Shown in pieces: positions 7,038-55,863 of a stretch of 64,000 nt of DNA. The notes under the pieces were generated by a model, which was not told the DNA's origin, ran no database searches, and saw only the letters and a list, made by a program, of their open reading frames with translations. Each line of letters begins with the position of its first letter. Position 1 is the first letter of the stretch. The translations under genes and the position numbers were made by a program. The DNA comes from Fodinisporobacter ferrooxydans. GTDB lineage: Bacteria; Bacillota; Bacilli; Tumebacillales; MYW30-H2. The stretch covers positions 2,497,501 through 2,561,500 of the forward strand of contig NZ_CP089291.1 in NCBI RefSeq assembly GCF_022818495.1, in the 5' to 3' direction.

Positions 7038-7074
7038 GGCAGTGCGAACATTTGCCACAGTCGTTCGCCCTGCC
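7038..7074. terminator. Hairpin between convergent dltD and deacetylase genes
   Basis: GGCAGTGCGAAC and GTTCGCCCTGCC pair over 12 bp with one mismatch. It lies between two convergent genes, as a shared terminator would, but the T-tract is poor on both strands. Confidence 0.5.
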
Positions 7075-7095
7075 TTGATAAGTCTCACACTTGAT

Positions 7096-7788
7096 TCACT
7101 TGGTTTGCAAAAGATCGGTGACGGTTAAAAACTGGTATCCCTGTTTTTGAAGTTCCGGGAGGATGATTTTGAGTGCCTCTACCGTTTGTGAACAATCTCC
7201 TTCAAAATCATGAAATAAAACGATATCACCGTTATGGACATTGGATAAAACGGTGCGGACAATTTTATCAACACCAGGTTTTTTCCAGTCCCTCGTATCT
7301 TGATACCATGACCAAAGAACGATTTGACAATGTTGCTGTTTGGCGACATTGATGACAGAGGGATTCACAATTCCCCCCGGCGGTCGGAATATGTGCGGGA
7401 CCTGCTCGATTGTATCGTATATGGCCTCTTGTGTTTGAACGACTTCTTGCTCGGCTCTTTGGAGCGCAGATCCTTTTAAATATTGATGATCAAACGTGTG
7501 ATTCGCAATCTCGTGGCCTTCGTTGACTTCACGTATGACAAGTTTCGGATACATTCCTACACGTTTTCCAAGGACAAAAAATGTGGCGTTGGCGTTATAT
7601 TGTTTCAGAATATCCAGGATTTTTGGGGTGAATACAGGATTGGGACCGTCGTCAAATGTAAGAGCAATCACCTTTTTGTCTGTATGAATGCTGGATACCA
7701 CTTCATCTGTCTTGGCATACGAAACTCCGCAAAGACAAAGGAGAATTGATGCGAATGTCGCTATAGACCCTTTCCGATACAAAGCCAT
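7096..7788 (-). CDS. Secreted polysaccharide deacetylase (NodB domain)
   Basis: Exported carbohydrate esterase family 4 enzyme (about 230 aa) that removes acetyl groups from a polysaccharide, probably a peptidoglycan or chitin-like polymer. The signal peptide is MALYRKGSIATFASILLCLC. Motif 1 is LTFDDGPNP with the catalytic Asp pair, motif 2 is HEIANHTFDH with the metal-binding histidines, motif 3 is RPPGG, and LFHDF supplies the last histidine region. The start is ATG 7788; an in-frame GTG at 7794 is possible and neither has a convincing ribosome site. The upstream side is occupied by element copy B, whose end forms a promoter only about 14 bp from the start, which would give an almost leaderless mRNA. 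Confidence 0.88.
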   Translation of the reverse strand: MALYRKGSIATFASILLCLCGVSYAKTDEVVSSIHTDKKVIALTFDDGPNPVFTPKILDILKQYNANATFFVLGKRVGMYPKLVIREVNEGHEIANHTFDHQYLKGSALQRAEQEVVQTQEAIYDTIEQVPHIFRPPGGIVNPSVINVAKQQHCQIVLWSWYQDTRDWKKPGVDKIVRTVLSNVHNGDIVLFHDFEGDCSQTVEALKIILPELQKQGYQFLTVTDLLQTK

Positions 7789-7802
7789 CCCCACTTTTTT
7801 GT

Positions 7803-7831
7803 CTTATAGAGGATGTTCAAAAAATAGTCAA
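7803..7831 (-). promoter_or_regulatory. Putative promoter formed by element copy B and its target site
   Basis: On the minus strand TTGACT (7831-7826) lies inside the element end, and TATAAG (7808-7803) lies in the duplicated target CTATAAG, with a 17-bp spacer. It points at the deacetylase gene. The -10 is very close to the start codon, so the transcript would begin near 7796. Confidence 0.5.
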
Positions 7832-7962
7832 AACTCCACGGCGGATTGCTTTGTCGAATCCCAAAACGTCTTGCTCATGTACCAAACACGTACACTCCGC
7901 CGCCTTTTCGTGCTTCGACTTCGCACTCCTTGTGTCTTACTTAACCACTTTTTGAACACGCA
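7810..7962. mobile_element. 153-bp MITE-like element, full copy B
   Basis: The element is bounded by the 7-bp direct repeats CTTATAG at 7803-7809 and 7963-7969. Its ends, AGGATGTTCAAAAAATAGTC and the complement of TGCGTGTTCAAAAAGTGGTT, are imperfect terminal inverted repeats. It has no transposase, so it would have to be moved in trans. It matches copies D and E in length (153 bp) and almost throughout in sequence. Confidence 0.85.
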
Positions 7963-8107
7963 CTTATAGTATGACCGAAATCCGAGATCGTAATCAAACG
8001 TCTTTCATGGAAAATGATTTCCAATTGAAAGAATTACGTGGGATTTCTAATTTGTTTCCATAATTGTTCCAAAATCTAGCGATATAGTAGGACATGTAAA
8101 TACGAAA

Positions 8108-33125: not shown

Positions 33126-34710
<1,585 letters not shown>

Positions 34711-39101: not shown

Positions 39102-39175
39102 GTTCACAAGCAAAGGAAAATAAGAAAATCGATATAAGGTAAGAATGTTTGTTCAAAACGGAGGAGGAATTGTAC

Positions 39176-40255
39176 ATGTCAAAAAAATTAAGAATTGGAA
39201 TCATTGGCTGTGGCGGAATTGCGAATGGAAAGCATATGCCGAGCTTAGCGAAACTTGCGCAAGTAGAAATGGCCGCATTCTGCGATATTGAGGAAGAGCG
39301 CGCACATCAGGCGGCCGTAAAATTTGGTTCGGAGGATGCCAAAGTTTATACGGATTATCGAGAGCTCTTGAAAGATGCAACAATCGATGTGGTTCATGTC
39401 TGTACACCCAATGATTCTCATGCGGATATAACGGTAGCCGCTTTGCAAGCAGATAAACATGTGATGTGCGAGAAACCGATGGCAAAAACGGCTGCAGACG
39501 CCAGACGAATGGTTGAAGCTGCCAAGAACACAAACAAAAAACTAACGATTGGCTATCAAAATCGCTTTCGTACTGACAGCCAGTATTTGCATCAGCTATG
39601 TGAGCGTGGAGATCTTGGGGACGTCTATTTTGCCAAGGCGCATGCGATTCGCCGGCGTGCTGTCCCCACATGGGGTGTATTTCTCGATAAAGAAAAGCAA
39701 GGCGGGGGCCCTTTAATTGATATTGGAACACATGCTTTGGATTTGACTCTCTGGATGATGAATAACTACAAGCCCAAAGCCGTATTAGGAAGCACATTTC
39801 ATAAATTAGGTCAAAAGAAGGACGCCGCAAACGCATGGGGTCCTTGGGATCCGGAAACATTTAAGGTTGAAGATTCGGCATTTGGCTTTATTACCATGCA
39901 AAATGGCGCGACCATTGTCCTTGAATCCAGCTGGGCACTAAATTCACTGCAGACGGGGGAAGCCAAATGTACACTCTGTGGTACGGAAGGTGGAGCGGAT
40001 ATGCTGGACGGCCTTCGTATCAACGGCGAGAATTTCGGTAAATTGTATACGAATCGCATCGATCTGGATGCAAAAGGCGTTGATTTTTATAACGGGGAAA
40101 CAGAAAGTGCGGCAGATCTGGAAGCAAGACTATGGATTGAATCTATCTTAAACAATTCGGATCCCGTTGTGAAACCGGAGGAAGCCCTGGTGGTCACGGA
40201 AATCCTGGAAGCGATCTATCAGTCGGCGCAAACAGGAGAAACCGTTTATTTTTAA
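39176..40255 (+). CDS. Gfo/Idh/MocA family oxidoreductase (paralogue 1)
   Basis: A 359-aa NAD(P)-dependent oxidoreductase: Rossmann motif GIIGCGGIANGKHMPSL, catalytic lysine in HVMCEKPMAKT near residue 97, then GGGPLIDIGTHALDLTLW with the conserved Asp/His. ATG 39176 has GGAGGAGG upstream; ATG 39149 is less likely. It is very close to the 55996 gene along its whole length (same length, long identical runs such as RRRAVPTWGVFLD), so the two arose by recent duplication or have been kept similar. Likely acts with the preceding isomerase on the same sugar. Confidence 0.92.
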   Translation: MSKKLRIGIIGCGGIANGKHMPSLAKLAQVEMAAFCDIEEERAHQAAVKFGSEDAKVYTDYRELLKDATIDVVHVCTPNDSHADITVAALQADKHVMCEKPMAKTAADARRMVEAAKNTNKKLTIGYQNRFRTDSQYLHQLCERGDLGDVYFAKAHAIRRRAVPTWGVFLDKEKQGGGPLIDIGTHALDLTLWMMNNYKPKAVLGSTFHKLGQKKDAANAWGPWDPETFKVEDSAFGFITMQNGATIVLESSWALNSLQTGEAKCTLCGTEGGADMLDGLRINGENFGKLYTNRIDLDAKGVDFYNGETESAADLEARLWIESILNNSDPVVKPEEALVVTEILEAIYQSAQTGETVYF

Positions 40256-40305
40256 GATGTTACATACGATGATGCAAACAGTCTAGTAAGGGAAGGGCGA
40301 TTGAA

Positions 40306-40473
40306 AAACAGGCTGTCCCAAAAGTCAACTTTGGATTTTTCAACCCCCACTTTTTTCATAATATAAAATAAAGAACGAGCCTCCAACTCCATTTTCATTG
40401 TGGTTTTGGAGGTTTTTTCGTTCTGGTTTTGGGACTGGTTCATTCGGTGTCATCCTTTTAGGACAGCCTGTTT
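40306..40473. repeat. 168-bp inverted-repeat element, second MITE-like type
   Basis: AAACAGGCTGTCCCAAAA at the left end and TTTTAGGACAGCCTGTTT at the right end are inverted repeats with one mismatch. An internal hairpin CCTCCAA / TTGGAGG followed by TTTTTT (about 40388-40428) resembles a terminator and could end the upstream operon. It carries no transposase. Only one copy is in the window and no clear target duplication is seen. Confidence 0.65.
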
Positions 40474-40526
40474 CCGTGACAATATGATTCATAACAGACT
40501 TCAGAAATTTTTTAATTCCTATGAAA

Positions 40527-40556
40527 TTTCCTTTTAATTTTCCTTAAAAATTTCCT
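40527..40556. repeat. Three TTTCCT units at 12-bp period
   Basis: TTTCCT starts at 40527, 40539 and 40551. Two more copies (40813, 40826) and one reversed (40795) lie nearer the regulator gene. They may be binding half-sites, or a feature of AT-rich sequence. Confidence 0.35.
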
Positions 40557-40735
40557 TATAGAAACAATAAAATTCCCCCAATAGTAAACATTTGTTTTAT
40601 TGTCTTGGATAAAAGCCAAGCGCAGCTAGTTTTCTCTTCAATCCTGTGCACCTATGCAAACAACTTGCATTCTCAGCTTCAGCAATAAGGGATGCAGATT
40701 TTTTTGAGAGTTTTTAAAATATCAAAAATTACTTG

Positions 40736-40764
40736 TTGAAATAGTGTAAGCGTTTTATTATTAT
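40736..40764 (+). promoter_or_regulatory. Promoter with embedded cre (CcpA) site, module 2
   Basis: TTGAAA, 17-bp spacer, TATTAT forms a vegetative promoter. Inside the spacer TGTAAGCGTTTTAT (40745-40758) matches the cre consensus in 13 of 14 positions, so catabolite repression by CcpA is expected. Confidence 0.7.
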
Positions 40765-40864
40765 AGATATAAGAAATTTTACTTCAAATATATAAGGAAA
40801 ATAACATATTAGTTTCCTGATAAAATTTCCTAAATAACAATGACGGAGTATTGGTGAATATCAG

Positions 40865-41881
40865 ATGACAACAATAAAAGAAATCGCTGAAAAAGCAAAT
40901 GTTTCCATGTCTACTGTATCAAAAGTTTTAAATAATCGTACCAATTCCATTTCAGAGGAAACACGAAATCGAATTTTTGAAATTGCCGAGCAATTTCAAT
41001 ACAAATCCAATCGCAAACAAACGAATAAACAGTTGAATAAAGAAATAGGCATCTTAACTTGGTGTTCCCAACAAGATGAGTCAAACGATCCCTATTTTTT
41101 ATCGATTCGGCAAGGAATTGAAAAACAATGCAACGATTTGGGAATCCGTCTTTCAAAAATGATACGAATGAGCGACTCAATGCCGAATTACAAGGAGAAT
41201 CAACTCGATGGGCTCATTGTCATCGGAAAGATTGACCTTGATGATTTGAAAAAAACATTCGATCGTGAGGATCGCATCGTATTTGTGAATCAAAGCCCGG
41301 CTTCTCTGACATTTGATTCTGTTGTAGCAGATTTTGAGACAGCGACACAACAAGTTTTGGATCATTTTTTGCGCCTGGGCCATACGCGAATTGGCTATAT
41401 TGGCGGAGAAGAATACTTGCAAAAATACGAGGAAAAAAGAGGCGAGAAAGCAGCGGAAATTCGTAAAGAAACATTTGAAAACATCTTGAAGAATAAAGGC
41501 TATTACAATCCCAAGGACGTGTATATTGGGGAATGGACTACGGCGAGCGGCTACGAATTAATGAAGCAAGCTTTGAGAGATTCGGAATTTCTACGTGCGT
41601 TTTTCGTTGCCAGTGATAATTTGGCGATTGGTGCTATACGAGCGTTGCATGAATCTGGATTCAAAGTTCCGGATGATGTTGCGATTGTCAGTTGCGATGA
41701 CATTGAAATCGCCGCATATGTAAACCCTCCTTTATCAACTGTGCGAGTACACACAGAACAAATGGGAAAATCGGCGGTAAATGTTTTGAACGAAAGAATG
41801 AACGGCAGGGATATACCCGTTAAAGTGGTGATACCGACTGAATTGATCATACGAGAGAGTTGTGGAAGCAAGTTGACATGA
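40865..41881 (+). CDS. LacI-family regulator of alpha-galactoside module
   Basis: A 338-aa repressor with helix-turn-helix TTIKEIAEKANVSMSTVSKVLNN and a ligand-binding core (ASDNLAIGAIRALHESGFKVPDDVAIVSCDDIE). It precedes an ABC importer and a GH36 alpha-galactosidase, so melibiose, raffinose or another alpha-galactoside is the likely inducer. The 5' region is 600 bp long and holds an inverted-repeat element, a cre-bearing promoter and TTTCCT repeats. Confidence 0.91.
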   Translation: MTTIKEIAEKANVSMSTVSKVLNNRTNSISEETRNRIFEIAEQFQYKSNRKQTNKQLNKEIGILTWCSQQDESNDPYFLSIRQGIEKQCNDLGIRLSKMIRMSDSMPNYKENQLDGLIVIGKIDLDDLKKTFDREDRIVFVNQSPASLTFDSVVADFETATQQVLDHFLRLGHTRIGYIGGEEYLQKYEEKRGEKAAEIRKETFENILKNKGYYNPKDVYIGEWTTASGYELMKQALRDSEFLRAFFVASDNLAIGAIRALHESGFKVPDDVAIVSCDDIEIAAYVNPPLSTVRVHTEQMGKSAVNVLNERMNGRDIPVKVVIPTELIIRESCGSKLT

Positions 41882-42008
41882 GACATCTGAAAGGGGGTGA
41901 TGTTAAAGGAAGCGGTCTCAAACAGGACGCAGCCCTTTTACATAACTTGTAATCCGTGAGAATCGTTGACTGGTTTAAAATTGAAATTTTAAAAAGGTGG
42001 GGAACGAC

Positions 42009-43250
42009 ATGAATAAAAAAATGACAATCACTTTGTCAGGTGCATTTGCATTATCTCTGCTCATCACTGGGTGTGGCTCTACTAGTGGATCGTCAAGCAG
42101 TTCTTCGAACGGACAGGTAACACTTGAATTTTTTCAATACAAGCCCGAAGCCGGTGGAACTTTCAACAAGCTTATCAAAAAATTCGAACAAGAGAATCCC
42201 AATATCAAAGTAACTCAGACAAATCCTCCTGATGCGGAAACGGTAATAAAAACGCGCATCGCAAAGAATAATTTGCCGGATGTGATCGGAATTGGGGGAG
42301 ACAGCACTTATGCGGAAATGGCGAAAGACGGACTTTTAGCAGATTTTACAAAAAGTTCGGAATTGAAAAATATCGAACCTGCATATTTGAAACTACTTCA
42401 CCACGTGACCGGTTCCCAAACAGACAATGCCATTCCGTATGCAGCAAACGCAGACGGCGTCATTTATAACAAGCAAATTTTTAAACAATTGGGCATCACG
42501 CCTCCGACGACTTGGGATCAATTTATAGCAGATGCGCAAAAAATTAAAGCAGCGGGCAAAACGCCATTCTATTTTACATTCAAAGATTCCTGGACAACCC
42601 TGCCGGCATTCAATGGTTTGGCTGCCAATCTTCCGGGAGATTCCTTCTTTACTGATTTAAAAGCGGGAAAAACAACGTTCCAAAAAAGTTATAAAGATAC
42701 CGCAGATAAATTTTTGCAATTGCTGCAATATGGACAAGCCGATGAATTTGGCCATGGCTACAACGATGGCAATGTTGCGTTTGCAAATGGGAAGTCGGCC
42801 ATGTATTTACAGGGGATTTGGGCGATTCCTGAAATCAAAAAAGCAAATCCCAATATTCAATTAGGCGTATTCCCGTTGCCGGCAAGCAATGATCCGTCCA
42901 AAAACCGCCTGGTTTCCGGCGTGGACTTGCTCTTGACGATGCCAAAGAATGAAAAACATCCGGCAGAAGCGAAAAAATTCATCGATTTCTTGTTGAAACA
43001 AGATTCGGTCAAAACATACATCGCGGAACAAAACGCGTTTTCCATCGAAAAGGGAATCAATCAAGACAATCCGGATGTAGCAGAATTAAATCCTGTGTTT
43101 GCGAAAGGAATGGTGGTTGATTTTGCCGACCATAACATTCCGTCTGCCATGCATTTGGATCAATTGGTTCAGCAATTTGCACAAAAGAAAGATGTAAATG
43201 CATTCCTGAAGTCATTGGATACCGAGTGGAACAAAGCGCAAAGTCACTAA
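42009..43250 (+). CDS. ABC sugar-binding lipoprotein (alpha-galactoside module)
   Basis: A 413-aa extracellular solute-binding protein of family 1 with signal peptide and lipobox LLITGCGS. TLEFFQYKPEAGGTFNKLIKKFEQENPNIKV at the start of the mature domain is the family opening. I start at ATG 42009 (AGGTGGGG upstream). It belongs with the MsmE/RafE group by context: two permeases and an alpha-galactosidase follow. No ATPase gene is in the cluster. Confidence 0.92.
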   Translation: MNKKMTITLSGAFALSLLITGCGSTSGSSSSSSNGQVTLEFFQYKPEAGGTFNKLIKKFEQENPNIKVTQTNPPDAETVIKTRIAKNNLPDVIGIGGDSTYAEMAKDGLLADFTKSSELKNIEPAYLKLLHHVTGSQTDNAIPYAANADGVIYNKQIFKQLGITPPTTWDQFIADAQKIKAAGKTPFYFTFKDSWTTLPAFNGLAANLPGDSFFTDLKAGKTTFQKSYKDTADKFLQLLQYGQADEFGHGYNDGNVAFANGKSAMYLQGIWAIPEIKKANPNIQLGVFPLPASNDPSKNRLVSGVDLLLTMPKNEKHPAEAKKFIDFLLKQDSVKTYIAEQNAFSIEKGINQDNPDVAELNPVFAKGMVVDFADHNIPSAMHLDQLVQQFAQKKDVNAFLKSLDTEWNKAQSH

Positions 43251-43277
43251 TTCTAGGTATTGACGCTGTACAGATTT

Positions 43278-43302
43278 GAAACGGGGGACATTCTCCCGTT
43301 TC
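43278..43302 (+). promoter_or_regulatory. Hairpin between binding-protein and permease genes, module 2
   Basis: GAAACGGG and CCCGTTTC pair around a 9-nt loop. There is no T-tract, so it is more likely an mRNA-stability or partial-attenuation hairpin than a full terminator. Confidence 0.6.
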
Positions 43303-43331
43303 CTATTACCTTCCAAGAGGTGTATACATGC

Positions 43332-44198
43332 ATGAAATCGAAGAATCTCGCTTTTTACATCATGACAATTCCGGCATTTGCCCTATTTTTTACGTTTCAT
43401 ACGTTTCCGGCGTTAGAAGGAATTTTTTATAGTTTCACAAACTGGGATGGCATTGCGCCTTCGTTTAAATTGGTGGGATTCAAGAACTACTTCAATTTAT
43501 TCCATGACCAAGATGTATTAAACGCCTATCTGTTTACGTTTAAATTTGCTATTGTAACTACCCTAATTGTCAATGCATTAAGTTTGCTCATTGCCATGGG
43601 ATTAAATGCAAAAATCAAATGTAAAAACTTCTTTCGAGGCGTTTATTTTCTTCCCAATGTATTGGGTTCGTTGATTGTGGGCTATATTTTCAACTACATT
43701 TTTTCCAATATTCTTCCGCAAATGTTTGGGAAATTGGGAATTCAGGCGCTTTCGACCAACATATTGGGAAATGAGCATTATGCCTGGATCGGAATCGTAA
43801 TTGTGACTGTTTGGCAATCGGTTGCATTAAATACGATTTTGTATTTGTCCGGATTGCAAACAATACCTGCTGATTTATATGAAGCATCGAACTTGGATGG
43901 GGCGGGAAAATGGAAAGAGTTTTGGTATATCACATTTCCGATGATCGCTCCGTTTTTCACCATTAACATGGTTTTGGCTATGAAGAACTTTCTGATGGTA
44001 TTCGACCAAGTAATCTCCATGACAAACGGGGGGCCGGGAAAAGCTACAACTTCCATTTCTTTGTTGATTTATCAAAATGGTTTCTCTGGAAATGAGTTTG
44101 CATATCAATCAGCAAATGCAGTCATTTATCTGATTGTGATTATGATTATTTCATTCACGCAGATTAAATTCTTACAAAAACGGGAGATTGATATGTGA
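43332..44198 (+). CDS. ABC sugar transporter permease, MsmF-like
   Basis: A 288-aa MalF-type inner-membrane permease with six helices. The EAA loop that docks the ATPase is LYEASNLDGAGKWKEFWYITFPMIAPF. The start is ATG 43332 with AAGAGGTG 9 bp upstream. The stop overlaps the next permease's start (TGATG). Confidence 0.92.
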   Translation: MKSKNLAFYIMTIPAFALFFTFHTFPALEGIFYSFTNWDGIAPSFKLVGFKNYFNLFHDQDVLNAYLFTFKFAIVTTLIVNALSLLIAMGLNAKIKCKNFFRGVYFLPNVLGSLIVGYIFNYIFSNILPQMFGKLGIQALSTNILGNEHYAWIGIVIVTVWQSVALNTILYLSGLQTIPADLYEASNLDGAGKWKEFWYITFPMIAPFFTINMVLAMKNFLMVFDQVISMTNGGPGKATTSISLLIYQNGFSGNEFAYQSANAVIYLIVIMIISFTQIKFLQKREIDM

Positions 44199-45019
44199 TG
44201 ACAACACGAAAAATAAATTGGGGTATCACACTACTGATTGCACTTGGTTCCTTATTTATTTTCTTTCCTTTGTATATTGCAATAGCAATTGCCATGAAAA
44301 ATCCGCAGGAAATGGCGAAATCGGTGCTTGCGTTTCCGACCCATTTCCATTGGAGCAACTTTACGCATGCCATACAAATGACTCATTTTTTTCAAGCGGC
44401 CCAAAATAGTCTATATATAACAGCGCTATCCGTTATTTTTACCATTCTGACAAATTCATTGGTTGGATATGCTGTTGCCCGAAATTTGCATCGCAAACTC
44501 TTTAAAGGCCTGTATTATTACTTCGTGAGTGCATTATTTGTTCCGTTTCCGATCATCATGTTGCCAATTGTGAAAGAAACGTCCGCTTTCGGGCTTGACA
44601 ACCCAAACGGCTTGATTTTCTTATACATCGTTTATGGTTTATCGTTTAACGTGTTTTTGTATGTAGGATATATCCGTTCGATTCCAAAGGAATTGGAAGA
44701 AGCGGCAATTGTCGACGGCTGCAGTACATGGGGGGTGTTTTGGAGAGTTATCTTCCCTTTATTGGCTCCTATTAATGCTACAGTTGCCATTCTTACGGCG
44801 TTATGGGCATGGAACGACTTCCTGCTGCCGCTAATTGTATTGGACAAACCGGAATCTGCAACGCTGCCATTGGTTCAATATGTGTTCCAGTCACAATTCA
44901 GCATCAATTACAATTATGCTTTTGCTTCCTATTTACTGGCGTTGGCTCCCATGGTCATCGTGTATATATTTGCACAAAAATGGATCATCAATGGGGTTAC
45001 AAAAGGAGCAATTAAATAA
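44198..45019 (+). CDS. ABC sugar transporter permease, MsmG-like
   Basis: A 273-aa MalG-type permease: six helices, EAA loop LEEAAIVDGCSTWGVFWRVIFPLLAP. The ATG overlaps the preceding TGA. It forms the channel with the MsmF-like subunit; the shared MsmX/MsmK-type ATPase must come from elsewhere in the genome. Confidence 0.92.
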   Translation: MTTRKINWGITLLIALGSLFIFFPLYIAIAIAMKNPQEMAKSVLAFPTHFHWSNFTHAIQMTHFFQAAQNSLYITALSVIFTILTNSLVGYAVARNLHRKLFKGLYYYFVSALFVPFPIIMLPIVKETSAFGLDNPNGLIFLYIVYGLSFNVFLYVGYIRSIPKELEEAAIVDGCSTWGVFWRVIFPLLAPINATVAILTALWAWNDFLLPLIVLDKPESATLPLVQYVFQSQFSINYNYAFASYLLALAPMVIVYIFAQKWIINGVTKGAIK

Positions 45020-45038
45020 ACTTTGGGAAGGTGCTAAA

Positions 45039-47228
45039 ATGGGGATTCGATTTAACGCTGCAAATCAAACATTTCATTTACAGGCGAAAGATACAAGTTA
45101 TGTCATACAATTGATTCGAGACGGATACTTGTCGCACAAGTATTGGGGAAGAAAAATCAATGAATATCAAAATTCGAACAATCTAACGTTTTTGGATCGG
45201 GCATTTTCACCAAATCCGGAATCGAACGATCGGACATTCTCATTGGATACACTCCCACAGGAGTATCCGGCTTACGGAAATACGGATTTTCGTACGCCTG
45301 CATATCAAATACAATTGGAAAACGGTTCAACAATCTCAGATTTGCGGTATGGCACACACAAAATTTTTAAAGGAAAACCTAAATTGGAGGGGTTGCCAGC
45401 TACCTATATTGAAAATATAGATGAAGCGGAAACTTTGGAAATTGAGTTGCTTGATTCCTTGCTTGGACTGAAAGTGATTCTTAGCTATACGGTTTATGAG
45501 GATTATAATGTTATTGCCAGAAATGTACGTTTTATCAATGAGGGAAATCAAAAATTAAGAATATTGCGGGCGTTAAGTGCCAACATCGATTTTCATGATT
45601 CCGAATACGATTTGCTGCATCTCTCCGGTGCTTGGGGGAGAGAAAGACATATGATACGGCGTCCTTTATTTGTTGGAAACCAATCCATCGAGAGTCGCCG
45701 CGGAGCAAGCAGTCATCAGAACAATCCATTCCTTGCTTTGCTAAGGAAAGATGCAAGCGAAGACCATGGGGAGGTTTATGGGTTTAGCTTGGTCTATAGC
45801 GGCAATTTTTTGGCAAATGTGGAAGTCGACCAGTTCCAAACGACCCGGGTTTCTATGGGAATCCATCCATTTGATTTCACCTGGATATTAAATGGCGGCG
45901 AAACGTTTCAAACTCCTGAAGTCGTACTCGTATATTCTGCAAATGGGCTCGGCGACATGTCGAGAACGTATCACAAATTGTACCGGACTCGCTTGTGCCG
46001 GGGACCATTCAGGGATACAGTCCGTCCGATTTTAATCAACAACTGGGAAGCAACGTATTTCCGGTTTCATGCGGAGAAAATCGAAGAAATTGCAAAAGCG
46101 GGAAATGAACTGGGAATTGAGTTGTTTGTTTTAGACGATGGATGGTTCGGAAAACGAGATGACGATATAAGCTCCTTGGGTGATTGGTTTGTGGATCGAA
46201 ATAAACTGCCCAAGGGTTTGGAAGACTTGGCAGGACGGGTTCGAAACCTGGGAATGCAATTCGGTCTTTGGTTTGAACCGGAAATGATATCTGTCGACAG
46301 TGAATTGTATCGAAACCATCCGGATTGGTGTTTGCACGTTCCCAATCGTCGTCGCTCGGAAAGCAGAAATCAGCTGATATTGGATTTTTCAAGAGATGAC
46401 GTCTGTGAGTATATCGTGCAAGCGGTCTCGGATATTTTGTCTTGTGCTCCCATTACATACGTAAAATGGGACATGAACCGGCATATGACGGAAATCGGTT
46501 CAGCGAAGTTGCCGCCAGAAAGACAAAGGGAAACGGCACACCGGTATATGCTTGGGTTATATCGCATTATGGAAGAAATTACTTCCCGCTTTCCACATGT
46601 TTTATTCGAAAGCTGCTCAGGGGGAGGAGGAAGATTTGACCCAGGCATTTTGTACTATATGCCGCAAACGTGGACGAGTGATAACACGGATGCGGTCTCC
46701 CGTTTAAAAATCCAATACGGCACGAGCATTGTCTATCCTTCCAGTTCCATGGGTGCTCATGTGTCTGCAGTTCCGAATCATCAAGTGCATCGCATTACAT
46801 CTTTAAAAATGCGAGGAGATGTAGCGATGTCCGGAAATTTCGGATACGAGCTGGATGTAACGAAATTTACAGAAGAAGAAAAGGAAATTGCAAAAAATCA
46901 AGTGGAAATGTATAAACAGTTACGCCATTTGATTCAATTCGGCGATATGTTTCGTTTGCTAAACCCGTTTGCGGGAAATGAAGCGGCCTGGATGTTTGTT
47001 TCCGAAGATCAATCAGAAGCGTTTGTGGCATATTTTCAAGTGTTGGCAGAAGCAAATGCCCCGGTAAAAACACTGAGGCTAAAAGGATTACATTCGCAAA
47101 CGGCATATGAAATCATTGAAACCGGAGAAATTTACGGCGGAGATGAGTTGATGTATGTCGGTTTAACGGTTCCCGTATTGCATGGAGACTTTCAAAGCTT
47201 TGTATTCCGATTGCAAGCACGCGGATGA
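45039..47228 (+). CDS. Alpha-galactosidase, glycoside hydrolase family 36
   Basis: Cytosolic GH36 enzyme of 729 aa that removes terminal alpha-1,6-galactose from melibiose and raffinose oligosaccharides. The nucleophile is Asp478 in YVKWDMNRH and the acid/base is Asp548 in TWTSDNTDA, the same numbers I recall for Geobacillus AgaB, and ELFVLDDGWFGKRDDD and ESCSGGGGRFDPG are family motifs. I start at ATG 45039 (GGAAGGTG upstream); an upstream extension overlaps the permease gene and is not coding. It completes the module-2 operon: import, then hydrolysis inside the cell. Confidence 0.95.
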   Translation: MGIRFNAANQTFHLQAKDTSYVIQLIRDGYLSHKYWGRKINEYQNSNNLTFLDRAFSPNPESNDRTFSLDTLPQEYPAYGNTDFRTPAYQIQLENGSTISDLRYGTHKIFKGKPKLEGLPATYIENIDEAETLEIELLDSLLGLKVILSYTVYEDYNVIARNVRFINEGNQKLRILRALSANIDFHDSEYDLLHLSGAWGRERHMIRRPLFVGNQSIESRRGASSHQNNPFLALLRKDASEDHGEVYGFSLVYSGNFLANVEVDQFQTTRVSMGIHPFDFTWILNGGETFQTPEVVLVYSANGLGDMSRTYHKLYRTRLCRGPFRDTVRPILINNWEATYFRFHAEKIEEIAKAGNELGIELFVLDDGWFGKRDDDISSLGDWFVDRNKLPKGLEDLAGRVRNLGMQFGLWFEPEMISVDSELYRNHPDWCLHVPNRRRSESRNQLILDFSRDDVCEYIVQAVSDILSCAPITYVKWDMNRHMTEIGSAKLPPERQRETAHRYMLGLYRIMEEITSRFPHVLFESCSGGGGRFDPGILYYMPQTWTSDNTDAVSRLKIQYGTSIVYPSSSMGAHVSAVPNHQVHRITSLKMRGDVAMSGNFGYELDVTKFTEEEKEIAKNQVEMYKQLRHLIQFGDMFRLLNPFAGNEAAWMFVSEDQSEAFVAYFQVLAEANAPVKTLRLKGLHSQTAYEIIETGEIYGGDELMYVGLTVPVLHGDFQSFVFRLQARG

Positions 47229-47250
47229 CAAAGATGGATCTTGTTCAAAT

Positions 47251-47297
47251 AAAAAAGAGGATGTCCCAAACGAAATGATGGGACACCCTCTTTTTAT
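47251..47297 (+). terminator. Terminator of the alpha-galactoside operon
   Basis: AAAAAGAGGATGTCCCA pairs with TGGGACACCCTCTTTTT with one internal mismatch around a 10-nt loop and ends in a T-run. Confidence 0.88.
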
Positions 47298-47468
47298 CTC
47301 GATACGATTTGTGATAGCAGATAAGACTGTCATGTAAAACAAAATGGAATGAGTATTCACATGTCACAGGAAATGGATTTGTAAGAGTGTTTGACTTATA
47401 ATGCAGGAATGGGGCAATGTAGCAAGTGATATGCTTATTGGTGTGATAAAAGACAAAGAGGTGAGAGA

Positions 47469-47795
47469 ATGACGATTTATGTATCAAATCAGGAAGTAAA
47501 GCAACGCCTGGAACGTGGAGAAAGCGTAAATATTATTGATGTCAGAAATCCGGATGAAGTAAAAAAAGGGATGATTCCTGGCGCCAAAAACATCCCGCTG
47601 ACAGAACTGGAGAGCCGTATCGGGGAATTGGACAAGGACGAAGCATACATATTTGTTTGAGGCGGCAAAACAAGAAGCACGCGTGCGTGTGAAATCGCTG
47701 CAAAATCAGGTTTTCCAAATGTCAAGAGCATGGAAAGCGGCATGAAACAATGGGATGGCGAAATAGTCGGACAACCGGTTTCCAATGGGTCATGA
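47469..47795 (+). CDS. Single-domain rhodanese with in-frame TGA at the catalytic cysteine
   Basis: Rhodanese-type sulfurtransferase fold, 108 residues if the TGA at 47658-47660 is read through, the normal length for a GlpE-like protein. IIDVRNPDEVKKGMIPGAKNIPL is the CH2A region. The active-site loop reads YIFV, TGA, GGKTRS: the stop stands at residue 64 where the family has the sulfur-carrying Cys of CX4R(S/T). The frame then stays open and family-like (ACEIAAKSGFPNVKSMESGMKQW) to the end. The ribosome site AGAGGTGAG is good. Either this codon is selenocysteine, or a single base change made a recent pseudogene. A small hairpin GCACG-CGTG-CGTGT (47677-47690), with G in its loop 21 nt after the TGA, lies in the window expected for a bacterial SECIS, but such hairpins arise by chance. 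Confidence 0.72.
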
Positions 47796-47806
47796 TGGAA
47801 TGATAC

Positions 47807-47843
47807 AACCATGCCTATTGCTATCGTAGCAACCGGCATGGTT
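47807..47843. terminator. Nested hairpin between convergent genes
   Basis: AACCATGCC pairs with GGCATGGTT, and inside it TTGCTA pairs with TAGCAA. It separates the rhodanese gene from the convergent acetyltransferase. The T-tract is poor. Confidence 0.55.
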
Positions 47844-47891
47844 ATTCTCGTTGGTAGAATCGGATTATACCTATACTTCATTTCTAATACT

Positions 47892-48452
47892 TCATATTTC
47901 AATTTGTTTCATCACTTTTGCAGGATTCCCGGCTACAACAACGTTATCAGGCACATCTTTTGTCACCACTGCACCAGATGCTACAACTACGTTATTGCCT
48001 ATATGAATGCCGGGATTTATAATGGCTCCCCCGCCAATCCATACGTTGTTGCCGATCGTGACTCGTTTTCCGTATTCTGCTCCCGCAATCCGCTCGTATG
48101 GATGCAAAGGATGCGTAGCCGTATAGATATGTACACCTGGAGCAAGAAGGCAGTTATCACCGATACGTACTTCACAAACATCTAAGATGACACAATCGAA
48201 ATTCGCATAAAAGTTTTCTCCAACGTGAATGTTGTAGCCATAATCACATCGAAAATTCGGTTCGATATATACATGATCTCCGGTTGAACCGAAAAGTTCC
48301 TTTAGAATTTCAGTACGTTTGACGTCTTCCGTTTCGAATGTTTGATTGTATAATCGAGTGAGTCTTCTTGCGTTTTGCCGTTCTTTTACTAATTCTGCAT
48401 CGGCCGCATTATAGAGTTTGCCATTCAACATCTTTTCTTTTTCTGAAAACAT
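47892..48452 (-). CDS. maa: Maltose/galactoside O-acetyltransferase family protein
   Basis: A 186-aa trimeric left-handed beta-helix acetyltransferase (Maa/LacA/NodL family) that acetylates sugars with acetyl-CoA. The N-terminal cap [27 protein letters not shown] is diagnostic, and hexapeptide repeats run from about residue 60 ([21 protein letters not shown]), with the catalytic His in [12 protein letters not shown] and CoA-side repeats [22 protein letters not shown] precedes ATG 48452. Monocistronic. Confidence 0.9.
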
Positions 48453-48582
48453 GATTATAATCTCCTGTAAAATGTTAATTTTGTGTGAATGATTTCATTC
48501 AATTCTCTAAAATCATACCACATCCAAACTTTTTTTTTCAACAAAACTGTTTCGCTGATCCGGGAGCTTTGGCTGCACGTAT

Positions 48583-48605
48583 CTTCCGCTTTAAAGAAGC
48601 GGAAG
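48583..48605 (+). promoter_or_regulatory. Leader hairpin before the MFS transporter gene
   Basis: CTTCCGCTT and AAGCGGAAG pair exactly around TAAAG, 83 bp before the start codon, then ATTTAG. It could be a leader hairpin or a weak terminator of something upstream. Confidence 0.45.
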
Positions 48606-48687
48606 TATTTAGTGTGCGGTTAGCCCTATCGGATACATTTTTTCCATAAAGTCTTACATATAAAAAAGAGGAAGGAAGCATAAAGAA

Positions 48688-50091
48688 ATGAAACATGTGG
48701 AGAGGAATGCCAAACCTGTAACGGACACTTCCGACATAAAGAAAAGTGTGCTGTGGATTTATTACGTCATCTTTTTCGCCGTACTGAATGAATCGGTATT
48801 TAACGTATCCACCCCAAGCATTGCCAAGCAGTTCGAGTTGGATGCTTCCGGCGTTAGCTGGGTGGTTACGATCTTTTTTATCGTCTTCGGTATGGGAACT
48901 GTCATTTTTGGAAAGCTTTCCGATATGTATAGCGTCAAAAAACTGATTACGATTGGAATCGCCCTTTACAGCCTGGGGTCTATTCTGGGCTTTGTTTTAC
49001 AATCCTGGTACCCCGCCGTCATTTTATCCAGGGCGATTCAAGGGGCCGGCGGATCCTCCATTCCGGCATTGGTCTTTGTCATGGTAGCCCGCTTTTTTAC
49101 AGCGGAAGAACGGGGGAAAATGTTTGGCGTCATAACGTCGATCGCTTCTTTTGCGGTTGGCATCGGTCCGGTACTCGGCGGTTATATTGCGGGATCGTTC
49201 CACTGGGCATATTTGTTTCTCCTTCCGCTCCCCGTACTTGCGGCTATTCCTTTTTTTCAAAAGTTTTTGCCTGTGGAACAACGTAAAGCGGGCAAATTGG
49301 ATAGTATTGGAGCGGTGCTGCTGTGCATTGTAGTGTCGATGCTGATTTTGTTTACGACAAAAGCGCATTGGCTTTATTTGCTCGTAGCTTTCATAGCTCT
49401 TATCCTTTTTATCGTCCAAATCCGCCGGGCGAAGGAGCCGTTTGTCGATCCTGCCCTTTTCACCAATCCGCTCTACAGGAGCGGGCTCATCGTCGGCTTT
49501 CTTATATTCGGCACCGTGATGTCCGTGATGTTTGTGATCCCGCTTATGTTAAGTAAAATGTACGGCCTTAATACGGAGAAAATCGGGCTCATTATGTTTC
49601 CGGGAGCGATCAGCGCAGTCATATTCGGGAGAGTTGCCGGCAAGATGACAGTCAAACGGGGAAGCCATTTTGTCGTATATCTGGGGTTGGCCTTAATCGC
49701 GCTTAGCCTGCTGATGCAATCTTCATCCGTCGGGCTTTGGGTGTGGTACATTGGGGCTGCTCTGATTATGATGTATATCGGATTTTCCTTCGTGCAGACG
49801 GCATTAACGGAAAGTGTAACGAAAATATTGCCTGTTCACCAAATCGGCGTCGGCATGGGTCTTTTCAATATGACGTCGATTCTTTCAGGGGCGGTAGTAA
49901 CCGCATTAGTCGCCAAAGCGATGGAGAAAGAGCTGTTCGCTTTCCCGTTCCACCCTTTCATTTCGAATTCGCATGCATACTTGTACGGCAATCTCATTCT
50001 GTTATTAAGTTTGATTGTCGTAACGAGCGGGCTCTTGTATTTTTTATCTTTCGGTAAAAAATCCCCGGAGCCGGTCAATGAACCGATCTAA
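48688..50091 (+). CDS. MFS drug exporter, TetK/TetL-like (14 TM)
   Basis: Drug:H+ antiporter of the DHA2 type, 467 aa and about 14 helices. From memory it aligns with Tet(K)/Tet(L): FFAVLNESVFNVSTPSIAKQF, FGKLSDMYSVKKL (motif A), LSRAIQGAGGSSIPALVFVMVARFF (motif C region) and IGLIMFPGAISAVIFG. The divergence is too large to call it a tetracycline resistance gene; other drugs or monovalent cations are possible. GAGGAAGGAAG precedes ATG 48688. The gap from its stop to the next promoter (50092-50369) holds no convincing gene. Confidence 0.86.
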   Translation: MKHVERNAKPVTDTSDIKKSVLWIYYVIFFAVLNESVFNVSTPSIAKQFELDASGVSWVVTIFFIVFGMGTVIFGKLSDMYSVKKLITIGIALYSLGSILGFVLQSWYPAVILSRAIQGAGGSSIPALVFVMVARFFTAEERGKMFGVITSIASFAVGIGPVLGGYIAGSFHWAYLFLLPLPVLAAIPFFQKFLPVEQRKAGKLDSIGAVLLCIVVSMLILFTTKAHWLYLLVAFIALILFIVQIRRAKEPFVDPALFTNPLYRSGLIVGFLIFGTVMSVMFVIPLMLSKMYGLNTEKIGLIMFPGAISAVIFGRVAGKMTVKRGSHFVVYLGLALIALSLLMQSSSVGLWVWYIGAALIMMYIGFSFVQTALTESVTKILPVHQIGVGMGLFNMTSILSGAVVTALVAKAMEKELFAFPFHPFISNSHAYLYGNLILLLSLIVVTSGLLYFLSFGKKSPEPVNEPI

Positions 50092-50369
50092 CATTCGCTG
50101 CAGTCGCTATTGCGTAAAGGCAGGCGTGGTTTTTCGATGAAATCAGTGGTCTCAGGTACGATTCATAATAAGAGGCAGCAAATTGTAACCGAGGATGGGA
50201 TGATTCAAAAAATCGGCCAACTATCCGCAATTGGACGGAGAGGCATGTTCGCAAGACGGCAAGTTCACAATCTGCGCCATCAACTTGTCGTCTTATCCCT
50301 TCATTATTTGTATTTTGAAGAGTCATTGTGCGCGCCATGTAAAAGATATTTAAAGCTTTCAAATATTTA

Positions 50370-50415
50370 TTGACAAATCATAATAATCATTTTATTGTAT
50401 ATGTAAGCGCTTTAT
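50370..50415 (+). promoter_or_regulatory. Promoter and cre site of module 3 regulator
   Basis: TTGACA (50370), 17-bp spacer and TATTGT (50393) form a promoter. TGTAAGCGCTTTAT (50402-50415), a cre-like site, covers the predicted start, and GAAACCGTTTTC follows at 50417. Control by CcpA and by the LacI protein is likely. Confidence 0.65.
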
Positions 50416-50458
50416 GAAACCGTTTTCTGAAACAGGAATCAGAAAGAGAGATATGGGA

Positions 50459-51508
50459 ATGAAGGTAAATATAAAGAGAGTAGCACAAGAGGCAAATGTT
50501 TCGATTTCTACAGTTTCCAGAGTTCTTAATTCTCCCGAACTGGTGAGTCCGGAAAAACGGCAGCGCGTCCTTCAGGTAATACAGGAACTGAATTATCAGG
50601 CAAGTGAGCTTGCGCGTGGTTTGAGTTCCAAGAAAACGCAAACGATCGGCGTAATCATTCCTCGTGTTACAAGTTTCTTTTTCAATGAATTATACCGGGG
50701 TATTGATGTTGCTGTGAAAGAGTTTGGCATGAATATCTTGTTGTACGACTGTGACTCGAATCTGGAACGAACGACGCATGGATTCACATTTCTGGTTAGG
50801 CGTCAAGTTGAAGGGATTATTTATGCCAGTCAGTTTATTACTGAAGAATTGTATACGTTTATATCCCGGCTTGGTGTACCGGTCATTCTGGCGTTGACGG
50901 AGAGCTTTAACAGAAAACTGACCGCCTTTAAAGTCGACGAAGTTCGGGCGGCGTTCGATGCCGTATCCTATTTGATTGCCCGCGGCCATCATAGAATCGC
51001 GATGATTTCCGGTCCGCTTGACAATTTTGTTGCGGGGAAGACTCGCTATGAAGGGTATCGAATGGCGCTTAATCAACATAATCTCCCATTTTTGGATGAC
51101 TGTGTGGCTTTTGGGGGATATCGATATGAAGATGGGCACCGTGCAATGAGAGAACTTTTGGAAAAACGGAATGATACGCAATTTACTGCTTTGTTTGCCG
51201 CTAGTGATGAGATGGCGATCGGAGCTATGAGATGTGCGTTTGATCACGGACTCTCTGTGCCGCAAGATATCTCCATCATCGGTTTTGACAATCTTTCAAT
51301 CGCCAATATGGTAACACCGAAATTGACAACAGTTTCCCAACCCTTTGAGCAAATCGGTTTTGAAGCAGTACGAACGTTAATTCGAGCGATTTCCGGCGAC
51401 ATACATGAATCGGATTCTTCTAACCATTATCTTCCACATCAAATTATTGAAAGAGAATCGGTTGCCAGCAGAGCCATAGAAGAAGTGGCAGCCGCTGACG
51501 AGCGGTAA
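50459..51508 (+). CDS. LacI-family transcriptional regulator (module 3)
   Basis: A 349-aa repressor with helix-turn-helix VNIKRVAQEANVSISTVSRVLNSPELVSPEKRQRV and a periplasmic-binding-like core (FAASDEMAIGAMRCAFDHGLSVPQDISIIGFDNL). I start at ATG 50459; ATG 50414 would lie in the operator region. It precedes an ABC importer and ThuA/Gfo genes and most probably controls them. Confidence 0.9.
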   Translation: MKVNIKRVAQEANVSISTVSRVLNSPELVSPEKRQRVLQVIQELNYQASELARGLSSKKTQTIGVIIPRVTSFFFNELYRGIDVAVKEFGMNILLYDCDSNLERTTHGFTFLVRRQVEGIIYASQFITEELYTFISRLGVPVILALTESFNRKLTAFKVDEVRAAFDAVSYLIARGHHRIAMISGPLDNFVAGKTRYEGYRMALNQHNLPFLDDCVAFGGYRYEDGHRAMRELLEKRNDTQFTALFAASDEMAIGAMRCAFDHGLSVPQDISIIGFDNLSIANMVTPKLTTVSQPFEQIGFEAVRTLIRAISGDIHESDSSNHYLPHQIIERESVASRAIEEVAAADER

Positions 51509-51601
51509 TTGGATCCTTGAAGTTACAGATACATAGAAAAACTGAACTTTTGGGATCTGATTCTATAAATCTTCTGCATATTTAAAAAGGGAGGAACGTT
51601 T

Positions 51602-52948
51602 ATGGTTCGATTAAACGCGCAAAGCAAAGTTTGGAAACACAGGGGGATTCAAACCGCAGCCGTTTTTATGATGTCGACTGCCTTGTTGGCAGGTTGCGGA
51701 AGCTCAAGCACTTCCACAAACGCAACCGGAAGTTCCGGTGCCGGAAGTTCTGGCACCTCTTCGACAAAGCCTGTAACGATCACATTCGCATCGGGGAAAG
51801 ATGCTACAGGAACCGTACAACTTGAAATAAAAAAATTTGAAGAAGAAAACCCAAATATTAAAGTCAATTACATCGAGGAACCCCAAAGCTCGGACGAGTA
51901 TCATAACCAATTGGTAACAAAATTATCAGCAGGCGACAACAGCATCGATGTATATGCGATGGATATCATCTGGCCGCCGGAGTTCGGGGCTGCAAAATGG
52001 AATTTACCTTTGAATCAATACTTCTCAAAGGCGGATTTGTCTGCCATGTTGCCGGGGCCGGTTCAAGGAGATACGTACAAAGGCACCTTATATGCTGTCC
52101 CGTGGTTTACAGATGCCGGCGTTCTCTATTATCGCAAGGATATTCTTGACAAAGCGGGGATCCAACCGCCTAAAACATTTGATGAGTTGATGAAAGATGC
52201 GGAAAAATTAAAGGGGCAAGGCGGAACACAGTATGGATTCGTCTTTCAGGCGAAGCAATACGAAGGCCTTGTCTGCGACTACCTGGAGTATCTCTGGGGC
52301 AACGGCGGTGACGTATTGAATAAGGACGGAAAAGTTGTCATCGACTCGCCTAATAATCTTGAAGCGACGAAGTTTTTCGTGAATTTGGTAAAATCGGATG
52401 TTGTTCCTAAGGGAATCGATACGTTTATGGAGGAAGATGCACGTCGTCTGTTTACGGAAGGCAAGGCTGTATTCATGCGCAACTGGCCATATGCCTGGTC
52501 CATTTCCCAAGGACCCGAATCGAAAGTCAAAGGGGAAGTCGGCATGGCGCCGATGCCTGTCGGTCCGCATGGAACTGAGCCTGCCGCTACTCTCGGCGGT
52601 TGGAATCTTGGCGTAAATGCGAATATTAAAAAAGATCATGTAGCTGCTGCCATTAAGTTCTTGAAGTTCATGACAAGCCCGGAAGCACAGAAATTAAGTG
52701 CGATCAAAGGAAGCAGATTGCCGATCCTAAAAGAGACGTATAAAGACGCTGATGTGCTCAAAGTGGATCCGCAATTTGCACAATTGTATCCGGTATTTAT
52801 TCATGCAAAACCACGTCCGGTTTCACCGGTATATCCGCAAATTTCTGACTCGATCCAAATCAACGTTCATAAAGCAATGCTCGGAGAAGAGACTCCGGAA
52901 CAAGCGTTAAAGACGATGCAGGATCAAATTTCCAAGCTTGTAAAATAA
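51602..52948 (+). CDS. ABC sugar-binding lipoprotein (module 3)
   Basis: Extracellular solute-binding protein family 1, 448 aa. Signal peptide with lipobox LLAGCGSS, a Ser/Gly/Thr linker, then TITFASGKDATGTVQLEIKKFEEENPNIKV. Later AMDIIWPPEFGAAKWNLPL and WFTDAGVLYYRKDIL resemble trehalose/maltose-type binding proteins (ThuE-like), which agrees with the ThuA gene downstream. GGGAGGAACG precedes ATG 51602. Confidence 0.92.
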   Translation: MVRLNAQSKVWKHRGIQTAAVFMMSTALLAGCGSSSTSTNATGSSGAGSSGTSSTKPVTITFASGKDATGTVQLEIKKFEEENPNIKVNYIEEPQSSDEYHNQLVTKLSAGDNSIDVYAMDIIWPPEFGAAKWNLPLNQYFSKADLSAMLPGPVQGDTYKGTLYAVPWFTDAGVLYYRKDILDKAGIQPPKTFDELMKDAEKLKGQGGTQYGFVFQAKQYEGLVCDYLEYLWGNGGDVLNKDGKVVIDSPNNLEATKFFVNLVKSDVVPKGIDTFMEEDARRLFTEGKAVFMRNWPYAWSISQGPESKVKGEVGMAPMPVGPHGTEPAATLGGWNLGVNANIKKDHVAAAIKFLKFMTSPEAQKLSAIKGSRLPILKETYKDADVLKVDPQFAQLYPVFIHAKPRPVSPVYPQISDSIQINVHKAMLGEETPEQALKTMQDQISKLVK

Positions 52949-53016
52949 CAGGGATGAGTATGGAAGTTTTTTAAGCAATCATGGGAAGCAACAGGGGTTC
53001 CTGAAAGTCAAACATG

Positions 53017-53051
53017 CTTGGGTTCGGCAAAATTTCATTGCCGAACCCAAG
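53017..53051 (+). promoter_or_regulatory. Strong hairpin between binding-protein and permease genes, module 3
   Basis: CTTGGGTTCGGCAA and TTGCCGAACCCAAG form a perfect 14-bp stem with a 7-nt loop, followed by TTTG. It should lower permease expression relative to the binding protein. Confidence 0.75.
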
Positions 53052-53073
53052 TTTGAAAGGGAGGATCACAAGT

Positions 53074-54051
53074 GTGAAAAATACGAACCTGTCCATGGAT
53101 AACATCCTGAAAACCAGCCAAACGAACATTGACAATGCCACGAAATATGGCAAAAAGAGACGGCGACAAGAAGCGCTTTTGGGATACGCACTGGCTTCTC
53201 CGGGAATTCTCGTCATTGTGATTTTCTCTTTATATCCTATTATACAGACGATCAATCTGAGTTTTCATTCTTTAAAATTGACGATGCCCGGACTTGGAGA
53301 ACCGTTCGTAGGAATCAAAAACTATCTGGAAATTTCCCATTCCGCGCGGTTTTGGTTAGCCGTATGGCATACATTTGAATTTACGTTATATTCGGTTGTA
53401 TTCGAATTGGTTTTCGGATTGCTGATTGCCTTGCTCATCAACCGGCCGTTTTTCGGGCGTGGATTGATTCGGGCGGTTGTATTGATCCCTTGGGCTATAC
53501 CGACAGCTATATCATCCATGATGTGGAAATTCATGTTTGATGATCAATTAGGAGTCGTCAACCCGATTTTGATGAAACTGGGAATCATTCATCACAGCAT
53601 CGTGTGGCTTGGAAATCCAAATTATGCATTGGGATCGATTATTTTTGTGGATGTATGGAAGACGACCCCGTTTATGGCATTGCTGCTGTTGGCTGGATTG
53701 CAAGTCATACCGTCCGAATTGTATGAGTCGGCGAAAGTAGATGGCGCAAATGCCTGGCAACGCTTTTTTAAGATTACTTTGCCGTTGTTGAAACCGGCCT
53801 TGCTGATCGCGTTGCTGTTCCGTACCCTCGATGCATTCCGCGTGTTCGACGTCATCTTTATATTGACAGGCGGAGGTCCCGGCAATTCGACGGAAAGCCT
53901 GTCGATGTATGCGCAAACCGTTTTGATGCGCTATATGGACTTCGGACATGGATCCGCATTGGCAGTCGTTACGTTTGTGTTTATTTTATTGATCAGCATC
54001 TTCTATATCCGCTTGATCGGAATCCCGGTCGACCAGGAAAACAAGGAGTGA
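53074..54051 (+). CDS. ABC sugar transporter permease, MalF/ThuF-like
   Basis: A 325-aa permease with six helices; the EAA loop is LYESAKVDGANAWQRFFKITLPLLKPAL. GTG 53074 is the start (GGGAGG 9 bp upstream); the upstream ATG 53014 lies inside the hairpin. Confidence 0.9.
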   Translation: MKNTNLSMDNILKTSQTNIDNATKYGKKRRRQEALLGYALASPGILVIVIFSLYPIIQTINLSFHSLKLTMPGLGEPFVGIKNYLEISHSARFWLAVWHTFEFTLYSVVFELVFGLLIALLINRPFFGRGLIRAVVLIPWAIPTAISSMMWKFMFDDQLGVVNPILMKLGIIHHSIVWLGNPNYALGSIIFVDVWKTTPFMALLLLAGLQVIPSELYESAKVDGANAWQRFFKITLPLLKPALLIALLFRTLDAFRVFDVIFILTGGGPGNSTESLSMYAQTVLMRYMDFGHGSALAVVTFVFILLISIFYIRLIGIPVDQENKE

Positions 54052-54057
54052 TACGGC

Positions 54058-54894
54058 ATGAAAATGACATCAAGACTCATTCGCGGAACGCTGTTTTATA
54101 CAGCAGTCATTCTATTTGTCGTAATCGTAGCATTTCCTTTTTATTGGCAATTGATCACATCGTTAAAATCGCCGCAGGAAATCTATCAAATGCCGCCGGC
54201 GTGGTGGCCATCCTCATTTTATTTTGGCAGTTATAAAGATGTATTCACAAAGACGCCTTTTGGCCTCTATCTTTTGAATAGTTTTATCGTATCATCGATT
54301 ACGACAATTCTTTGTTTGGTATTCGGATCCACTACAGCATATGCGGTTGCCAGATTGCGTTTCAAAGGGAAAAAATTCTTGCTCGGCCTTGTCTTAAGCG
54401 TCTCGATGTTTCCGCCAATCGCGGTTTTAAGCCCACTGTTTCTGATATTAAAAAATCTGCACTTGTTGAGTACGTACCAAGGCCTGATTTTTCCTTATAT
54501 GACGTTTACAATGCCTTTGACCATTTGGATCTTGTCAAGTTTTTTTCGGGAAATTCCAAAAGAACTGGACGAAGCGGCAATCGTCGACGGTTGTACAAGA
54601 CTTCAGACATTTTGGCGAATCATGCTTCCCTTATCCGGACCGGGATTGTTTACAACAGGCATTCTTGTTTTCATTGCGGCCTGGAATGAATTTTTATTCG
54701 CATTTACATTTATGACGAATGACGCCATGCGAACGGTACCCGTCGGGATTGCCATGTTCCAAGGCGAGCATTCCTTGCCGTGGGGAGACATTTCCGCCGC
54801 GTCCATCGTAGTGACAGTACCTTTGATTATACTTGTGCTAATCTTCCAGAAACGCATTATTTCCGGCTTGACTGCCGGTGCGGTAAAGGGATAG
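54058..54894 (+). CDS. ABC sugar transporter permease, MalG/ThuG-like
   Basis: A 278-aa permease with six helices and EAA loop LDEAAIVDGCTRLQTFWRIMLPLSGPG. AAGGAG is 10 bp before ATG 54058. No ATPase gene follows; element copy E comes 52 bp after the stop. Confidence 0.92.
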   Translation: MKMTSRLIRGTLFYTAVILFVVIVAFPFYWQLITSLKSPQEIYQMPPAWWPSSFYFGSYKDVFTKTPFGLYLLNSFIVSSITTILCLVFGSTTAYAVARLRFKGKKFLLGLVLSVSMFPPIAVLSPLFLILKNLHLLSTYQGLIFPYMTFTMPLTIWILSSFFREIPKELDEAAIVDGCTRLQTFWRIMLPLSGPGLFTTGILVFIAAWNEFLFAFTFMTNDAMRTVPVGIAMFQGEHSLPWGDISAASIVVTVPLIILVLIFQKRIISGLTAGAVKG

Positions 54895-54946
54895 AACTAG
54901 TACTAGTATATGTAAATAAGCTCCAAATGAAAAATTTTAATAGTAG

Positions 54947-55099
54947 AGGATGTTCAAAAAGTAGTCAAAACTCCACGGCGGGTTGCTTTGTCGAATCCCC
55001 AAAAGGCTTACTCATGTACCAAACATGTACACTCCGTCGCCTTTTCGTGCTTCGACTTCGCACTCCTTGTGTCTTACTTGACCACTTTATGAACACTCA
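54947..55099. mobile_element. 153-bp MITE-like element, full copy E
   Basis: Flanked by ATAGTAG (54940-54946) and CTAGTAG (55100-55106), a 7-bp duplication with one difference. Same orientation as copy B. It separates the importer genes from thuA, so the two may no longer be one transcript. Its TTGACT end faces back towards the permease gene (minus strand), with a weak -10. Confidence 0.87.
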
Positions 55100-55140
55100 C
55101 TAGTAGAAATCGGTAGGAAAGATGAGGAGGAGGAACCAGT

Positions 55141-55863
55141 ATGATTCGAGTAACAGTGTGGAATGAAAATATTCACGAGAAAACGAATCCAAAAGTATCG
55201 GAAGTATATCCCAACGGCATTCACGTCGCCATAAAAGAGGGCATTGCCGGCGATTCCTTCGAAATTCGCACAGCCACGCTTGATCAACCGGAACACGGTC
55301 TGACAGAAGATGTGTTGCAACATACAGATGTTCTGATCTGGTGGGGACATAAAGCGCACGACAGGGTGGCAGATGAAATTGTCAACCGGGTGTATTCCCG
55401 GGTTTTGCAGGGGATGGGGCTAATCGTTCTGCACTCTGGGCACTTCTCGAAAATTTTCAAAAAGCTGATGGGAACCACTTGTGATTTGAAATGGAGAGAA
55501 GCAGGCGAGAAGGAAAGAATTTGGGCGGTGAATCCGGCACATCCGATTGCCGAAGGGGTCGGGCAATATATCGAGATTGAAAACGAGGAAATGTACGGCG
55601 AACATTTTGATATCCCGGCGCCGGATGAGCTGGTGTTTATCAGTTGGTTTGCGGGAGGAGAAGTGTTTCGCAGCGGATGTACCTATTACCGGGGGCAGGG
55701 AAAAATCTTTTACTTCCGGCCGGGTCATGAAACATACCCGACGTACCATCACAAAGATGTTTTGCGGGTGATTGCCAATGCGGTGAAATGGGCGGCGCCA
55801 AGACATGGTGCGAAGCCTGTATACGGCAATTCACAACCGTTGGAAGACATTAAGGGAAAGTAA
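55141..55863 (+). CDS. thuA: ThuA domain protein (trehalose/disaccharide utilisation)
   Basis: A 240-aa protein of the ThuA family, a glutamine-amidotransferase-like fold without the usual catalytic triad cysteine. [45 protein letters not shown] and [36 protein letters not shown] are family stretches. In Sinorhizobium thuA/thuB are needed to degrade trehalose, maltitol and sucrose through 3-keto derivatives. GAGGAGGAGGAACC precedes ATG 55141. A Gfo/Idh partner (ThuB-like) follows. Confidence 0.91.

Follow-up and report, generated by a model that had tools for sequence, protein, structure and literature searches.

On the forward strand of the window, the whole 64-kb stretch of DNA analysed here, positions 47469-47795 translate as a frame of 108 codons that is interrupted by one internal stop before its terminal TGA (47793-47795). 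The internal stop is likewise a TGA (47658-47660); it occupies codon 64 and is directly followed by codons for GGKTRS (47661-47678). A Shine-Dalgarno-like GAGGTG (47458-47463, same strand) lies 5 nt ahead of the ATG, so that the single 108-codon frame with one internal stop and the good ribosome site described in a first-pass annotation of this DNA are both confirmed. Just 3′ of the frame and on the same strand is a strong inverted repeat (47807-47843; -20.8 kcal/mol for 47806-47850), which is a possible transcript end, though it does not have the T run of a textbook terminator. Only four TGA-interrupted frames in the window are coding-like on both sides of the stop; the frame described here has the top score among them, and it alone has its TGA within a single conserved domain, at a position held by Cys.

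The surrounding region (39149-55863), with genes named by eye from their translations, holds two sugar-uptake clusters comprising ABC permeases, binding proteins, LacI-type regulators, dehydrogenases, and an alpha-galactosidase-like gene. The interrupted frame is an isolated gene, flanked by the alpha-galactosidase-like gene and, on the opposite strand, by an acetyltransferase-like gene. Elsewhere in the window, a TGA at 34708 ends a 405-residue flavoprotein-like frame. The 35 codons beyond it remain open and show coding-like codon use and a SECIS-like hairpin, but lie outside any Cys context; this stretch probably reflects chance or a small C-terminal decay.

When the internal TGA is read through, the product matches the rhodanese domain over its full length (PF00581, 72.7 bits compared with a gathering score of 22.2, residues 7-96). 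The portion preceding the TGA scores 42.2 bits by itself, and the portion following it gives a weak match of 15 bits, below the cut-off and correctly placed at profile positions 71-100. An AlphaFold2 model built from 38 aligned sequences adopts a rhodanese fold with a mean pLDDT of 91.7, in which residue 64 resides between a strand (60-63) and a helix (68-79), where rhodaneses have their active-site loop. The Cys-containing rhodaneses of PDB entries 9a5g, 3mzz, and 3iwh share this fold (TM 0.84-0.89) and the same catalytic position. The profile score, the fold, and a CX4R loop that reads UGGKTRS, with the proposed selenocysteine (Sec, U) taking the place of Cys, assign the read-through product to the rhodanese family. 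The gene is therefore predicted to encode a 108-residue single-domain rhodanese, to which sulfurtransferase activity is ascribed by analogy with its family.

The alignment comprises this rhodanese and 37 relatives, three of which are paralogues from its own genome (L003, L004, and L021; L021 is the nearest of these, at 48% identity). Column 64 is Cys in all 37 relatives, which bears out the proposal that the TGA stands in place of the active-site Cys. An in-frame TGA is thus found opposite a conserved Cys of homologues, with conserved flanks on both sides, and such Cys/TGA pairing is the criterion used in SECIS-independent searches for selenoproteins (PMC9312934). The loop itself, UGGKTRS, differs from the CRSGxRS that predominates among the collected relatives. 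However, the same loop type occurs naturally with Cys in other rhodaneses, as CGGRTRS in a Shinella plasmid protein (L128) and as CAGRTRS in the Pseudomonas aeruginosa protein 1yt8, and its presence alone therefore does not point to decay.

The first-pass annotation had also described intact family sequence on both sides of the stop, and this holds with some qualification. Codon statistics in the proper frame are positive before the TGA (0.31 bits/codon) and after it (0.22 bits/codon), where the other five frames reach no more than 0.02 bits/codon. The 44 codons that follow the TGA combine these coding statistics with nearly all of the family's signature residues, including every invariant one (R69, S70, G81, G91, and W95). 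The exception is G67, which is nearly invariant among relatives and is Lys in this rhodanese. Conservation beyond the TGA is also relatively low: the ratio of identity after the TGA to identity before it is 0.80, below that of each of the 37 relatives (whose mean is 1.10, sd 0.11), and with the loop left out it is 0.81, the second lowest (mean of the others 0.96, sd 0.10). These values could reflect relaxed constraint, or else membership in a different rhodanese subgroup together with the demands of a SECIS element on the same codons.

The genome, a single contig of 4.86 Mb that is 100% complete, encodes the full apparatus for selenocysteine insertion. Profile searches identify selA (598.8 bits) and selB (352.5 bits, or 387.5 with the C-terminal piece), the latter in one open frame of 641 amino acids. 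A tRNA-Sec gene (selC) with anticodon TCA (UCA) is present, as is selD, which carries an in-frame TGA of its own (AG-U-GCKIGP). SelA, SelB, SelD, and tRNA-Sec, for which the first-pass annotation had recommended a search, are thus all encoded, alongside other genes for UGA-containing selenoproteins. One of these is a second selD-like gene with an in-frame TGA in the context AG-U-ACKVGP (C1:147069-147986 in the genome; L119, and L125 at about 7070-8095). Another encodes a formate dehydrogenase alpha subunit with TGA in the context NRT-U-HAP (L097 and L126; C1:3594769-3596778); four such alpha genes score above the family cut-off, and the remaining three have no internal stop. The TGAs of both selD genes and of the formate dehydrogenase gene sit at known or expected Sec positions. 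Each of 13 other genomes of the order has one TGA-containing selD, and selA accompanies a TGA-containing selD in all 14 genomes examined from the order; across the class, selA occurs in 85 of 399 sampled genomes. Given the presence of selA and TGA-selD throughout the order, and of the machinery and further UGA-containing genes in this genome, the gene content indicates that decoding of UGA as selenocysteine is normal in this lineage.

Downstream of the rhodanese TGA, a SECIS-like hairpin is predicted at 47662-47701 on the forward strand. It consists of a 5-bp lower stem (47662-47666/47697-47701) and a 5-bp upper stem (47677-47681/47686-47690) capped by the apical loop CGUG (47682-47685), which starts 21 nt past the UGA, and its folding energy is -11.3 kcal/mol. 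The hairpin with a G in its loop noted earlier at this distance is thus recovered by folding. The published bSECIS model calls for 4-16 bp, a loop of 3-9 nt with G in one of its first two positions, a spacing of 16-37 nt, and a minimum free energy of -7.5 kcal/mol or lower (PMC13188914). The rhodanese hairpin lies within all four limits, but so do 12-15% of control sequences, namely 11 of the 95 homologue regions that follow the active-site Cys and 15% of the synonymous recodings, and its folding energy is average (z = 0.06). The SECIS check proposed in the first-pass annotation thus gives a hairpin that agrees with the published limits but is not specific. Because such controls also satisfy the model, the hairpin adds little; it is compatible with a SECIS element, at a likelihood ratio no higher than about 7, and we rejected it as decisive evidence, in keeping with the earlier caution that it would not settle the matter. 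The model also lacks full sensitivity: when the same implementation was applied to the main selD genes of the order, which are presumed to be real, 7 of 14 failed. The hairpin of the formate dehydrogenase gene, in contrast, is SECIS-like and very strong, and only a fraction of 0.0005 of its synonymous controls match it.

A TGA-containing orthologue of the rhodanese was sought in several collections. None was found among the best 150 matches from 399 genomes of the class and 398 of the phylum, a sample without a congeneric genome, nor in the genomes of the order, none of which is congeneric. Viral contigs yielded nothing, and plasmids and phages yielded only relatives below 60% identity and no TGA orthologue. 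Five inspected matches from other genomes that contain a TGA (L037, L038, L058, L061, and L068) have Cys at the active site, with the TGA elsewhere in the match. The other one-TGA matches, among those listed, all reach at least query position 103, in keeping with normal gene ends.

We consider it likely that the catalytic Cys of this rhodanese is replaced by selenocysteine, a reading supported by the sel genes, the other UGA-containing selenoprotein genes, and the Cys of relatives. The main alternative is a recent nonsense mutation from TGC or TGT to TGA, which would have left a fresh pseudogene encoding a useless 63-residue fragment. That the TGA is common to no relative searched, that the hairpin stands at background level, and that conservation beyond the TGA is relatively below that of all 37 relatives are each consistent with such an event, and other Cys rhodaneses in the genome could cover the loss. 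A random mutation, however, would have had many other targets. Were codon 64 a Cys codon, the gene could acquire a stop through 43 different single-base changes; ten of these produce TGA, and a single one of the 43 falls on codon 64. The rest of the gene is free of decay, the invariant residues past the TGA are retained, the GGKT type of loop is natural in other rhodaneses, and the genome reads UGA as Sec in other genes. In a Sec-decoding genome, a TGA at the catalytic codon of an otherwise intact gene is far more likely to specify selenocysteine than to result from random nonsense mutation, and we regard the mutational origin as unlikely. Such doubt as remains concerns one recent mutation, since the genomes searched yielded no orthologue with the TGA and included no congeneric one.

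An error of sequencing or assembly, the true codon being TGC or TGT, would need only a single altered base. It would, however, have to strike the one catalytic codon and yield TGA there, within a genome assembled completely into one contig, and we judge it very improbable. If selenocysteine is indeed specified, tRNA-Sec and SelB would insert it at the UGA (47658-47660), guided by the hairpin just downstream, which SelB would be expected to recognize, and a full-length Sec-containing rhodanese would be made. The selenolate of this residue might then accept sulfane sulfur (or selenium) from a presumed donor as an Se-S adduct and pass the atom on.

Predictions of Sec-containing rhodaneses date back to 2005 (PMC1088965), and a 2026 review distinguishes five forms, with the motifs UxxS, UxxG, CxU, UxxG, and UxxxxU (PMC13188914). 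Forms 1, 2, and 4 (PF00581; UxxS, UxxG, and UxxG) resemble the present case in that a rhodanese with a Sec codon occurs in prokaryotes possessing the Sec machinery, and in that they too were predicted from TGA/Cys pairs; the loop UGGKTRS (UxxK) sets this gene apart from their listed motifs (PMC13188914). The rhodanese-related (seleno)protein family NF041203 (form 3) shares the rhodanese domain, but the CxU motif is absent from this gene, which scores 31.7 bits relative to a curated cut-off of 115. Similarly, TsoB (NF045694, UxxxxU), which resembles a rhodanese/DsbD fusion, has a rhodanese domain with Sec, whereas the product described here is single-domain with one Sec and scores 24 bits relative to a cut-off of 805. 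The single-domain rhodaneses of Bacilli (CRSGxRS) and those with CGGRTRS or CAGRTRS have Cys where this gene has TGA. Sec-rhodaneses are thus already catalogued and, given the UxxK motif and the scores below both family cut-offs, the predicted addition would be a UGGK loop in a genome that resembles those of Bacilli in its gene content and relatives.

Under automatic annotation the gene would appear as a pseudogene or as a fragment of 63 residues. If selenocysteine is inserted, the order, all 14 analysed genomes of which carry selA and a TGA-containing selD, gains a rhodanese in its selenoproteome. The gene would then exemplify a Sec/Cys exchange in the active site of a sulfurtransferase, where selenium offers no obvious benefit. 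We tentatively entertain the idea, which we hold to be somewhat less than an even prospect, that the protein represents a new UGGKTRS subgroup of Sec-rhodaneses that arose from a Cys rhodanese in a Sec-decoding lineage and may serve to carry selenium or sulfane sulfur in selenium metabolism.
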